DNA from: Bacillota bacterium
GTDB lineage: Bacteria; Bacillota; Sulfobacillia; Sulfobacillales; JAIMBI01
Length of the DNA stretch: 53,241 nucleotides
Assembly (NCBI GenBank): GCA_021797815.1
Contig: JAJZYZ010000002.1
Span: 65,256 to 118,496, forward strand
Direction: 5' to 3'
Below the pieces are notes generated by a model. It ran no database searches. It saw nothing but the letters and a program-made list of their open reading frames with translations, and had not been told where the DNA came from. A program made the translations under genes and the position numbers. Positions 2,525 to 31,070 of this stretch are shown piece after piece; position 1 is the stretch's first letter; every line of letters begins with the position of its first letter.

Positions 2525-2743
2525 ATGCGGCGCCGGTGGCTCCTATACTCTCTTTTGGCCGTGAACGTGATTCTAAACGCCGTGTTGCCGCCCGTTTTTC
2601 TCTTGTCCGCGCTGTTTTTGGTGGTCATGTCCTTCCGGACCGAGTTTCGCCCCCTTTTTAGGCTCTACGGGATCGTCATCTTGGCCGGCGGGCTTCTGGC
2701 CCTCTTTGGCGGTCTCGCGCTGCGCGGTCACCTGCACCCCTAA
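2525..2743 (+). CDS. Small membrane protein, two predicted TM segments
   Basis: A 72-residue hydrophobic protein with an Arg-rich N-terminus (MRRRW), a long hydrophobic segment at about residues 6-36 and a second at about 47-67, separated by a basic loop (FRTEFRPLFRLYG). This looks like a two-helix inner-membrane protein. No Shine-Dalgarno precedes the ATG, so a downstream GTG (2561) is possible. Its TAA overlaps the stop of the convergent aspS gene by 3-4 nt. No family recognised; the hydrophobic pattern is the main support. Confidence 0.5.
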   Translation: MRRRWLLYSLLAVNVILNAVLPPVFLLSALFLVVMSFRTEFRPLFRLYGIVILAGGLLALFGGLALRGHLHP

Positions 2744-4077
2744 GGCGCAAGGCGGCCGCGATAGCGCGGGAAGGCCGTAACCTCGCGAATGTTGGCCGCG
2801 CCTAGATACTGCTTGGCCACGCGCTCCAGGCCGATGGCAAAGCCGCCGTGGGGCGGCATTCCATGCCGGAACGCCTCGAGATAGGCCCCGAAGGGAGTGG
2901 GGTCCATGCCCCGCTCGGCCATAACTCGAAGGTAGTCGGCCTCTCGATGCAGGCGCTGACCGCCGGTCACAATCTCAAGGCCCCGAAACAGGATGTCGAA
3001 GCCGCGCGAATACCCCGGCCGGTCCGGGTCGGGATGGGTATAGAAGGGCCGTTCGTCCTGGGGATACCCGGTCACCACCAAAAAGTCGGACAGGAACTCG
3101 GTACGCGCCCACTCGCCTAAGTGGCGCTCGCCGGCCGGGGTGAGGTCAGGCCGTTCGCCGGGCTGCCGGATATGGGCCGCTTCCAGCACGGCCATCGCGT
3201 CCTCGAACGAGAGCGACGGCAGCGCATCCGGCATCAGGACCGGCTCCTGGTCGGGCATGAACGCCGCCGCGGCCGCCATCATCTCCGCCAATGCTTCGCG
3301 CGCGGTCGCAATGAGCTCCGCCACATTCTCGATGAAGCCCATCTCGGCGTCGAGGGAGCAGTATTGGGCCAGATGGCGCCCCGTGTCGTGGGGCTCGGCC
3401 CGGAACACCGGACCCACCTCGAACACCCGCTCCAGCACCCCGACCAGCATCTGCTTGTAAAGCTGGGGGCTTTGCGTGAGGTAGGCGGGAACGTCAAAGT
3501 ACTCAAGCCGGAAGACCTCGGCACCCCCTTCGGCCGTCGCGCCCACCATCTTGGGGGTAAAGACCTCCGTGAAGTCGAGACGGCGGAGCGCGGCCCGGAA
3601 TCCTTCCGCCAGCGCCGCCATGAGAGCGAGGGCCTGACGGCGGTCCGCGTGCCGCAGGGTGACCGCTGCGTGGTCGAGGATGAAGGGCAGACTTGCCTGC
3701 AGTTCCCGGCGTGACAGGACCACCGGGGGAGGTTCAGATGCTGCCGCCAGCACGGTGATGCGCGGCGCCACCAGCTCGACGCCGCCGGGTGCCCGCGGCT
3801 CGGTGCCGGGCGTGCCGATGACCTCCAGGACGCTTTCGTCGGGAACGGCGGTCAGGGGCGCCATTTCTTCGGCGTCGGCGCGAATCTGAGCCAGACCGGT
3901 TCGGTCACGGAGCACGACAAAGTTGAGAGTTCCGAGCCGGCGGACGTTGTGCAGAAAACCTTGGAGCCGAACCTCCTGGCCGATGTGGCCGGAAAGATCG
4001 GCGGCCAGGGTGCGGGGAAGCTTTTCGGGGGCAGGATGAGTTGAGCCAGTCGGCTCGGACGGGTCAGACGGATTCAT
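2740..4077 (-). CDS. aspS: Aspartyl-tRNA synthetase, archaeal/non-discriminating type
   Basis: A class II synthetase of 445 residues that charges tRNA-Asp and, in many relatives of this type, also tRNA-Asn for GatCAB amidation. An OB-fold anticodon-binding domain (about 25-115) precedes the catalytic domain. Motif 2 is at about 219-238 (FEVGPVFRAEPHDTGRH) and motif 3 at about 411-420 (GGFAIGLERV). It lacks the large GAD insertion of standard bacterial AspRS, and its length fits the archaeal type. The start at 4077 is set by GGAGG 8 nt upstream; a longer frame to 4143 would run into the T-box. Expression appears to be set by that T-box, whose specifier reads GAC (Asp). Whether the enzyme is discriminating cannot be decided here. 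Confidence 0.92.
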   Translation of the reverse strand: MNPSDPSEPTGSTHPAPEKLPRTLAADLSGHIGQEVRLQGFLHNVRRLGTLNFVVLRDRTGLAQIRADAEEMAPLTAVPDESVLEVIGTPGTEPRAPGGVELVAPRITVLAAASEPPPVVLSRRELQASLPFILDHAAVTLRHADRRQALALMAALAEGFRAALRRLDFTEVFTPKMVGATAEGGAEVFRLEYFDVPAYLTQSPQLYKQMLVGVLERVFEVGPVFRAEPHDTGRHLAQYCSLDAEMGFIENVAELIATAREALAEMMAAAAAFMPDQEPVLMPDALPSLSFEDAMAVLEAAHIRQPGERPDLTPAGERHLGEWARTEFLSDFLVVTGYPQDERPFYTHPDPDRPGYSRGFDILFRGLEIVTGGQRLHREADYLRVMAERGMDPTPFGAYLEAFRHGMPPHGGFAIGLERVAKQYLGAANIREVTAFPRYRGRLAP

Positions 4078-4293
4078 GCATGGCACCTCCGCACGCTCTC
4101 CTCCCTTGGTGCGGACGGGGAGGGACCCGTGGTGCCACCGCACTTCGTCGGCTGACCGACCTCATGCCCGATAACGCGGGCAGCGTGCTCACAAACGCTC
4201 GGGAGTGTCTTCGCCAGGGCCTCGTGCCGCGTTTCAGCGCCAGCGGCTCTCTTTAACGAAGGGAACCTGGGTACTACTCTCCGTCATGGCGTT
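4078..4293 (-). promoter_or_regulatory. T-box leader with GAC (Asp) specifier; SD-sequestering type
   Basis: Read leftward, the leader has a Stem I closed by CCAGG/CCTGG, with an AGTA motif and a distal GCCGC/GCGGC helix. The specifier loop reads GAA-GAC-A, with GAC at 4209-4207. Two small hairpins follow. The antiterminator-like element has helix GTGCGG (4143-4138) with CCGCAC (4114-4109), a TGGCACC bulge (4137-4131) and helix ACGGG/CCCGT. TGGC should pair with the GCCA end of uncharged tRNA-Asp. No T tract follows. Instead TGGCACC is exactly complementary to GGTGCCA (4087-4081), which overlaps the aspS Shine-Dalgarno GGAGG (4090-4086). This implies control of ribosome access, as known for actinobacterial T-boxes. 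Confidence 0.88.
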
Positions 4294-5056
4294 GTGCGGA
4301 TGGTAGCACCTCGGCGCGAGACTGTCGAGAATGCGAGAGGAGCTTGAGGAAGGCGGCGACGTAAGCTCCCGCAAACGGTTCCAGCTCTTGAATGGGCGGG
4401 GTCGGCGCGATATCTCCGAGGACCCCGTAAACCCGCAGACGCAAATATTCCCCGAACACCCGGGCCCGCCCGCTGCCCGATTGCGACCAGTCCTGGCGGG
4501 AGAGCGGCACACCATCGTACGCGGCGTCAAAGCCAAGGGGCGTTAGGGCGATGACGGGCGGGAGGTGACGGAGGAGAGTCGCGCGGGCGCGCCCGGCACC
4601 GTGACTCTTGGTGATGAAAAGCAGCGAGGCAACCGAGTCGAAGTCCAACCGCTCACGCGCAAACAGGACATTCTCAAGCGTGTTGCGCGAACGGTCCTCA
4701 ACCACGATGGCGGCGTCGGGAACACCGGCGTCGAGAAGATGCCGCCGCATCTCTCGGGCTTCCGGAATCTCGGTGTCATGCCAGTCCGGATGTTTCACCC
4801 CGCTCGGACTCACCCCACCGGTGACAAGCACCAGCGGTGCCAGCTCCCGTCGATAGGCGGCAATCGCCGTCTCCCAGTGGCCGGGATGGGTCCCCCCGAA
4901 CACGAACAGCAGATCGGCCGGTGCGGGCGCCGCCGGCGGCAGAAACACCGCCTCGGTCAGTTTGCGGATCGCATCCGGCGACAGGGGCGGGGAGGGGGGC
5001 GCCTTCGGTACGAGGGGAGTGTTTCGGGGGCTCTCAGGCGTCGACGAGGGCGTCAA
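4274..5056 (-). CDS. YdcF-like DUF218 domain protein
   Basis: About 260 residues with the DUF218/YdcF Rossmann-like core: LLFVFGG near the start, a VTGG turn, then EAREMRRHLLDAGVP and the hallmark EDRSRNTLENVLFARE. The family is linked to envelope or nucleotide-related functions, but its reaction is not settled. No signal peptide or TM helix is evident, unlike the SanA/ElyC branch. I favour a TTG start at 5056, preceded by GGAGGT 5 nt upstream and overlapping the RidA gene by 23 nt; an ATG at 5107 would lie deep inside RidA and encode an implausible Trp/Cys-rich leader. Its 3' end contains the promoter and first bases of the aspS T-box. Confidence 0.72.
   Translation of the reverse strand: MTPSSTPESPRNTPLVPKAPPSPPLSPDAIRKLTEAVFLPPAAPAPADLLFVFGGTHPGHWETAIAAYRRELAPLVLVTGGVSPSGVKHPDWHDTEIPEAREMRRHLLDAGVPDAAIVVEDRSRNTLENVLFARERLDFDSVASLLFITKSHGAGRARATLLRHLPPVIALTPLGFDAAYDGVPLSRQDWSQSGSGRARVFGEYLRLRVYGVLGDIAPTPPIQELEPFAGAYVAAFLKLLSHSRQSRAEVLPSAQRHDGE
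4300..4328 (-). promoter_or_regulatory. Promoter of the aspS T-box transcript
   Basis: TCGACA (4328-4323), a 17-nt spacer and TACCAT (4305-4300) with an upstream TG form a sigma-A-like promoter with extended -10. The predicted start, about 4293, falls just before Stem I of the T-box. The promoter lies inside the 3' end of the DUF218 gene. Confidence 0.65.
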
Positions 5057-5423
5057 CTTCCACCTCCACCAGCAGATCGGGGTTAATGAGCTTCGACACT
5101 TCCACAAGCGTGGCGGCCGGATGAAACTCCCGGAAGAGAGTGCCCATCACCTGTCCGATGTCGTCAGCCCGTCCGATGTCGGTCGTAAAGATCCGAACAC
5201 GCACGATGTCCTGCAGCCGCGCTCCCGCCTGGCGGAGCGCCTCTTCGATGATTGCAAACGCCCGTATCGTCTGTGCGCGCATATCTCCCGCGCCCACAAC
5301 CGCTCCCTCCCGCATGGCGGTGGTCCCGGAGACCCACACGTGCGAGCCTGCGCGCACGACCCGCGAATAACCGTAGCGGGCCTCCCAGGGGGAACCCGAG
5401 GCGATCTCCATCCGCTCACCCAT
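5034..5423 (-). CDS. RidA (YjgF/YER057c/UK114) family protein
   Basis: A 129-residue trimeric-fold RidA-family protein. RidA proteins hydrolyse reactive enamine/imine intermediates from PLP enzymes; some subfamilies have other roles. Visible hallmarks are SRVVRAGSHVWVSGTTA near the N-terminus, AFAIIEEALRQAGARLQDIVRVRIFTTD in the middle and ATLVEVSKLINPDLLVEVEVDA at the end. The Arg typical of enamine-active RidA near position 105 is not at the usual place (VSKL), which suggests another subfamily. The start at 5423 has GGAGG 6 nt upstream, and the length matches the family. It is first of a two-gene unit with the DUF218 gene. Confidence 0.85.
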   Translation of the reverse strand: MGERMEIASGSPWEARYGYSRVVRAGSHVWVSGTTAMREGAVVGAGDMRAQTIRAFAIIEEALRQAGARLQDIVRVRIFTTDIGRADDIGQVMGTLFREFHPAATLVEVSKLINPDLLVEVEVDALVDA

Positions 5424-30882: not shown

Positions 30883-30890
30883 GTGACAAG

Positions 30891-31066
30891 ACCCTGCGGT
30901 GTTCGTGCGGTGGTTCGATAGGTTTTGAGCCAACACCAAGACCTAGGGAGCCTGATCCGTCCGGGTGGCCGTCCTGCCCCGTCATCGGGGACTGCGAAAG
31001 CTCGGAGGAGGCACCCACCTGCCAGCGGCAGGTTCAAAACGTCGGAGCCCACGGCATTGTGGGGCA
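30891..31066 (+). ncRNA. ssrS: 6S RNA (RNA polymerase regulator)
   Basis: About 175 nt with the 6S layout. The 5' end CCCTGCGGTG pairs fully, with G-U pairs, with CATTGTGGGG at 31055-31064. The 5' strand carries TGTTCG and then TTTTGAGCC, and the 3' strand carries GGAGCCCACGGCAT, both resembling conserved 6S segments flanking the central bubble. 6S RNA mimics an open promoter, binds housekeeping RNA polymerase and is copied into short product RNAs. It has its own promoter and terminator and no open frame. Position after hisS recalls the Bacillota habit of 6S genes near synthetase genes. Confidence 0.85.
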
Positions 31067-31070
31067 ATTT

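Follow-up and report, generated by a model that had tools for sequence, protein, structure and literature searches.

A full-length T-box in front of the archaeal-type aspS gene of an uncultured Bacillota bacterium probably acts on translation initiation

Introduction

The aspS gene of an uncultured Bacillota bacterium is preceded by a T-box that is followed by no recognizable terminator, which raises the question by what means this tRNA-sensing leader acts on its gene. The locus is contained in a stretch of DNA of 53,241 nucleotides that was analysed as a whole and that is hereafter termed the window. An earlier note had read the leader as hiding the ribosome-binding site rather than ending transcription, a mode of action that it described as known mainly from ileS of Actinobacteria. 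This view of the field agrees with the literature, where ileS of Actinobacteria was the first gene with predicted translational T-boxes (Seliverstov et al., 2005; PMC1262725), and where a review considers the translational class as mostly Actinobacterial, reports a long Stem I for a few of its members, and describes the order in which the classes of T-box evolved as unknown (PMC7583486). Here we describe the leader together with a survey of archaeal-type AspRS genes, which were collected from the class of the organism (154 genomes) and from other phyla.

Results

Identity and parts of the leader

The boundaries proposed previously (4078-4328) are correct, and all features of the aspS leader are located on the minus strand, which had gone unstated (Table 1). 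The Rfam covariance model RF00230 matches this strand at 4296-4108 from end to end (model positions 1-219) with a score of 93.9 bits, above the gathering cut-off of 93, and an E-value of 2.4e-19. The outcome of this check, which the earlier note had itself suggested, confirms that the leader is a real full-length tRNA-sensing T-box and bears out the description of a complete element with Stem I, specifier GAC and TGGCACC bulge. The specifier is directly preceded by a conserved GAA (4212-4210) and is also found in the sister species and in relatives from g3, a genus of the same family, and g44, with GAT at this position in L096. The antisequestrator is composed of helix A1, formed by GUGCGG (4143-4138) and CCGCAC (4114-4109), the bulge UGGCACC (4137-4131) and helix A2, formed by ACGGG (4130-4126) and CCCGU (4119-4115); the start of aspS follows 53 nucleotides after the bulge. 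The region of Stem II, which is reduced in the window, and of Stem IIA/B is mostly absent from the alignment of the related g3 leaders shown (L094-L097).

Table 1. Positions of the aspS leader, its gene and further features in the window.
Feature	Position	Strand	Basis or remark
aspS, archaeal-type AspRS, ATG start	2740..4077	-	NF003483; start codon conserved in sister species
GUGCGGAGGUGCCA, complementary to UCCGCAC (A1 3' side) and UGGCACC (bulge)	4081..4094	-	minimum-energy fold pairs both
GGGAGGAG in linker, able to pair with CCUCCC of the A2 loop (competitor hairpin)	4098..4105	-	alignment; kept in sister species
T-box leader, full length	4108..4296	-	RF00230
Antisequestrator	4109..4143	-	Rfam alignment; A1, bulge and A2 as aligned
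Stem III	4147..4161	-	Rfam alignment
Reduced Stem II (4198-4183) and Stem IIA/B region (4182-4165)	4165..4198	-	deletions relative to Rfam consensus
Stem I, long form, with AGUA motif and distal AGAGAG/GCUGAAA loops	4197..4290	-	Rfam alignment
Specifier GAC (Asp), followed by A	4207..4209	-	aligned regions read against model
Promoter-like site TCGACA-17-TACCAT, TG before -10	4300..4328	-	only one in 4000-4700; shuffles mean 0.1
6S RNA, elsewhere in the window	30888..31069	+	84.3 bits

A tRNA-Asp gene was not found in the window's own assembly, and the fit of the tRNA to the leader thus rests on analogy with the sister species G089, whose tRNA-Asp contains the anticodon GUC, the discriminator G and the end GCCA, complementary to the specifier GAC and to UGGC of the bulge. 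By this analogy, the UGGN of the bulge would match the NCCA end of the cognate tRNA-Asp.

The synthetase encoded behind the T-box is of the archaeal type, as had been recognized before, and scores 463.9 bits against NCBIfam NF003483 (cut-off 353). Its match to TIGR00458 (313.2 bits) is below the cut-off of 368.4. A non-discriminating charging of tRNA-Asn is putative; AsnRS and GatA are both encoded in the genome. A bacterial-type AspRS was found neither in this genome (G000) nor in G089, the two species by which the genus is sampled, and it is present in the remaining genomes of the order with a completeness of 90% or more. With no other AspRS detected in the genus, the T-box appears to control the only such enzyme found there.

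In line with the proposal of a promoter inside the upstream gene, a sigma-70-like site (4328-4300) is located within the end of the upstream open reading frame (5107-4274). In G089, both hexamers of this site are unchanged, and a -10-like box is found just ahead of Stem I in most other related leaders. The conservation of this predicted promoter suggests that the leader probably starts its own transcript. The last codons and the stop of the upstream reading frame (4274-5107, minus strand) overlap the 5' strand of Stem I, so that it ends inside the T-box, and its product matched no NCBIfam family.

Absence of a terminator

The strongest indication of a different mode of action of the aspS leader comes from the comparison with the other ten T-boxes of this genome, all of which are equipped with T-rich terminators containing 6-7 T within 8 nucleotides. 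In the window, no stretch of 8 nucleotides after the T-box core contains more than three T, which substantiates the described absence of a T tract, and no terminator-like site was detected in 4000-4700. The leader does not fit the transcriptional class of T-boxes, which is characterised by an intrinsic terminator exclusive with an antiterminator.

Transcriptional control might nevertheless persist if premature ends were generated by Rho or by the competitor hairpin between the A2 loop and the linker, which lacks a U tract. We regard this as unlikely. The hairpin resembles a terminator arm, and its pairing is marginal in the sister species (p 0.05), significant in five g44 leaders (p at most 0.006) and associated with low p-values in most leaders of the family f3, while genuine terminators precede the same kind of gene in more distant members of the class and in several Chloroflexota. 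However, the pairing is not significant in the window itself (p 0.45) and no T-rich tail follows any such hairpin, which contrasts with the terminators used by the other ten T-boxes.

Complementarity to the ribosome-binding site

Downstream of the T-box, the bulge finds its exact reverse complement in GGTGCCA (4087-4081), a sequence that overlaps the Shine-Dalgarno sequence GGAGG (4090-4086) of aspS, as had been noticed from the sequence. Just upstream, GUGCGGA (4094-4088) is complementary to UCCGCAC, which comprises the 3' strand of A1 and one base of A2. The entire segment GUGCGGAGGUGCCA thus includes the Shine-Dalgarno sequence and a GCCA that resembles the 3' end of tRNA-Asp. Among 77 starts in the window that contain a Shine-Dalgarno sequence and that served as null set, 3.9% show a 7-nucleotide complement to the T-box strand and 1.3% reach the same stability of pairing.

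Both helices are joined in the minimum-energy fold, which covers the Shine-Dalgarno sequence and the start codon irrespective of whether the 3' domain alone or the whole leader is folded. For the 3' domain, where this sequestrator is the minimum-energy structure, the z-score is -1.98 and 7 of 200 shuffles are as stable, and the fold of the whole leader does not stand out from its controls (z -0.28). The energy for opening the Shine-Dalgarno region is matched by 70% of shuffled linkers and by 34% of shuffled antisequestrators, and the site is not buried more strongly than in shuffled controls rich in GC. Energetics thus allow sequestration and do not prove it. As proof of a hidden ribosome site, folding energy had to be dismissed for the relatives as well, which do not exceed shuffled linkers or antisequestrators with few exceptions (L104, L096, L021 and L035). 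The sister species retains only GGCACC and GGUGCC (6 base pairs) together with a weakened second helix, and the minimum-energy fold of its 3' domain differs from that of the window.

Conservation of the pairing in relatives

A single copy of the A1 variant found in the window (TGCGGTGG...CCGCA) is contained in each of 24 among the 154 genomes of the class, and it is always located in front of an archaeal-type AspRS. Two matches were detected in an even sample of 398 Bacillota genomes, mostly from outside the class, and both are already among the 24. None of these 24 leaders contains a hairpin with a directly following T tract; the T7 in L113 and T5 in L106 are located between the Shine-Dalgarno sequence and the start, which is not the position of a terminator. 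More distant members of the class contain canonical T-boxes before archaeal-type aspS, and 16 of 19 of these show at least 5 T in 8 bases.

The pairing between the T-box strand and the start region is conserved in a second family (f24), where GGAGGTGGTGCC[A/G]TG is invariant and its flanks are variable in five species (L098-L101 and L103). The complement GGUGGUGCC[A/G]UG forms 8-9 contiguous pairs with the T-box strand, and all 77 null regions stay below 8. The same pairing without T tracts recurs in other phyla, in L036 (Thermoleophilia), L045 (Dormibacterota), L021 (a Chloroflexi MAG) and L046 and L048 (both Phytohabitans). In L026 (Actinoplanes), the bulge has changed to UGGUACC and the start region to GGUACC, equivalent to a compensatory U-A change. 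Across 15 representatives, start regions pair better with their own than with foreign T-box strands (mean -14.6 compared to -13.6 kcal/mol, permutation p 0.0025, with permutation p-values treating related leaders as independent). The reading of a leader that hides the Shine-Dalgarno sequence rather than terminating transcription is thus supported by comparison, namely by a pairing that is conserved in a second family, recurs elsewhere and is compensated in one case, and not by energetics.

The comparison also bears on the reading that the complement has arisen by chance in a GC-rich genome, with the T-box being a relic or acting by an unrecognised route. This reading would fit the unexceptional behaviour in folding controls and the fraction of about 4% of start regions in the window that reach a 7-nucleotide complement. 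It is difficult to reconcile with the recurrence in several lineages, the invariance in five species, the compensatory case and the result of the permutation, and with the conserved promoter-like site and T-box core in front of the sole AspRS of the genus. We thus assign it a very low probability.

Variation among leaders without terminator

Sequestration by the T-box strand is not found throughout. In 13 leaders of f3, from the same order, neither a terminator nor a pairing of the T-box strand with the Shine-Dalgarno sequence was detected, and most of these contain the competitor hairpin, in which the A2 loop pairs with the linker. In L105, L107, L110, L112 and L140, among others, this linker, which extends from the antisequestrator to the Shine-Dalgarno sequence, pairs with the A2 loop in a covarying manner, without a T tract after it. 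In these 13 order-mates, the exact OFF structure may thus vary. The idea that all leaders without terminator share one OFF structure was consequently rejected, in light of the f3 leaders and of several Actinomycetota that contain another anti-Shine-Dalgarno sequence.

The same f3 leaders, which have kept T-box and adjacent hairpin despite lacking both features, would be accounted for if binding of tRNA mainly set the stability or processing of the mRNA, with cleavage near the competitor hairpin, and not the access of ribosomes. Control of the processing type is known for other leaders. However, nothing in the window indicates a cleavage site, and other lineages have specifically retained the pairing to the Shine-Dalgarno sequence and start, so that we consider such a role improbable for the aspS leader.

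In g3, the 3' strand of A1 can pair with the Shine-Dalgarno sequence instead (L094, -14.4 kcal/mol; L096, -19.3 kcal/mol). Terminator-less T-boxes before archaeal-type aspS are also found in Actinoplanes, Streptosporangium, Nonomuraea and other Actinomycetota (L019, L026, L029, L034, L184-L204 and others). In many leaders of this phylum, the anti-Shine-Dalgarno sequence consists of the 3' strand of A1 followed by UCC, as exemplified by GCACCUCC with GGAGGUGU in L034 (permutation p 0.023, under the same treatment of relatives), and it shows signs of covariation.

Other leaders depart at the specifier. The glycine codon GGC replaces GAC in several genera of f3 (L102, L104, L105, L107, L108, L137, L140 and L141). 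In L141, the bulge UGGA fits tRNA-Gly, whose discriminator is U in G000, and the match to AspRS is partial and contains a stop. In L032 (Thermomicrobiales), a T-rich terminator is followed downstream by GGTGCCATG, which is complementary to the T-box bulge, and the start is only putative.

T-rich terminators are retained in eight relatives from Chloroflexota and Thermomicrobiota. With several Chloroflexota keeping them, one cassette of AspRS and T-box would exist in both modes. In a tree of AspRS sequences, the enzyme of the window groups with those of f3, f24, Chloroflexota and Actinomycetota with 100/100 support, separate from the remaining enzymes of the class, which are mostly preceded by T-boxes with terminators. 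When the presence of the A1 variant without terminator is mapped as a character onto this tree, at least two changes on well-supported branches are required. A horizontal spread of the cassette accompanied by changes in its output is a reasonable reading of these relationships and not a proof.

Discussion

The features described in this study make it likely, in our view, that the aspS leader is a T-box that controls the initiation of translation. The parts of the element, their complementarity, the recurrence of the pairing and the lack of a terminator are properties of the analysed sequences, from which we infer a switch and its direction. In the proposed mechanism, the leader would be transcribed from a dedicated predicted promoter inside the upstream gene. 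If tRNA-Asp is charged, the antisequestrator would not be held and the T-box strand UGGCACC would pair with GGUGCCA across the Shine-Dalgarno sequence and spacer, while the freed 3' strand of A1, UCCGCAC, would pair with GUGCGGA just upstream, thus burying the Shine-Dalgarno sequence and start codon. Uncharged tRNA-Asp would pair with the specifier GAC and, via its GCCA end, with UGGC, and the antisequestrator stabilised in this way would release the Shine-Dalgarno sequence and start. GCCA is also present in the mRNA segment, which may thus be a direct competitor of the tRNA end for UGGC. In the earlier proposal that uncharged tRNA-Asp frees the ribosome site, the components hold as observed, and the release itself stays at the level of a candidate mechanism.

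A broader proposal, which we put forward tentatively, is that one cassette, common to Bacillota, Chloroflexota, Dormibacterota and Actinomycetota, has switched its output between termination and hiding of the Shine-Dalgarno sequence more than once, and that in its translational form the start of the mRNA imitates the GCCA of tRNA-Asp, so that uncharged tRNA and ribosome site would compete for UGGC. Leaders with and without terminators in front of one type of gene in related organisms provide a natural series on how the output of a riboswitch changes.

Whereas the type of T-box is itself known, its likely translational action combined with a long Stem I, aspS as regulated gene and an origin in Bacillota would be new. 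In the open-licence literature, we found no description of a translational T-box for aspS or in Bacillota and nothing on T-boxes in connection with Sulfobacillus or Chloroflexi; with the search limited to such papers, this absence is weak evidence of novelty. For the database TBDB, the search for translational T-boxes covered Actinobacteria and those class I hits whose Stem I is truncated, and class I leaders were trimmed so as to end in poly-U (PMC7778990). Leaders of the kind described here would be missed or mislabelled by searches that presuppose such an end, or that look for translational forms in Actinobacteria or among truncated Stem I alone.

The leader shares Stem I, specifier, Stem IIA/B and the UGGN bulge with the transcriptional T-boxes described by RF00230, including the ten others of its genome, from which it is distinguished by the missing U-rich terminator by an A1 helix of GUGCGG and CCGCAC instead of the common GGG and CCC, and by a gene start located 53 nucleotides behind the bulge. 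The T-boxes of other class members and of Chloroflexota (L013, L016, L032, L115, L118 and others) likewise precede an archaeal-type AspRS, and L013, L016 and L032 also share the A1 variant, but most of these leaders contain T-rich terminators. In Clostridium acetobutylicum, work by Saad and colleagues from 2012 and 2013 reportedly described a T-box before a cluster for tRNA-dependent amidation with a second AspRS, which acts by antitermination with specificity for Asn and Glu. That T-box also precedes an AspRS gene, in contrast to the window, where specificity is for Asp, a terminator is absent and the AspRS is the sole one found.

Close counterparts are the T-boxes of Actinobacterial ileS, which likewise combine a T-box sensor with the absence of a terminator, and in which the Shine-Dalgarno sequence is sequestered in an alternative fold, as is proposed for the window. 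These mostly contain a short or intermediate Stem I without elbow-binding distal loops and regulate ileS, whereas the leader in the window, from Bacillota, contains a long Stem I with AGAGAG and GCUGAAA loops and the specifier GAC in front of aspS. The Bacillota case is not isolated, because the same type of AspRS and T-box also occurs without terminators in Actinomycetota, where the anti-Shine-Dalgarno sequence of 3' strand of A1 and UCC is similar in spirit to the sequestering hairpin of ileS (PMC1262725). In the window, it is instead the T-box bulge itself that would pair with the Shine-Dalgarno region, thus placing the predicted contact sites of tRNA end and ribosome-binding site on the same strand.
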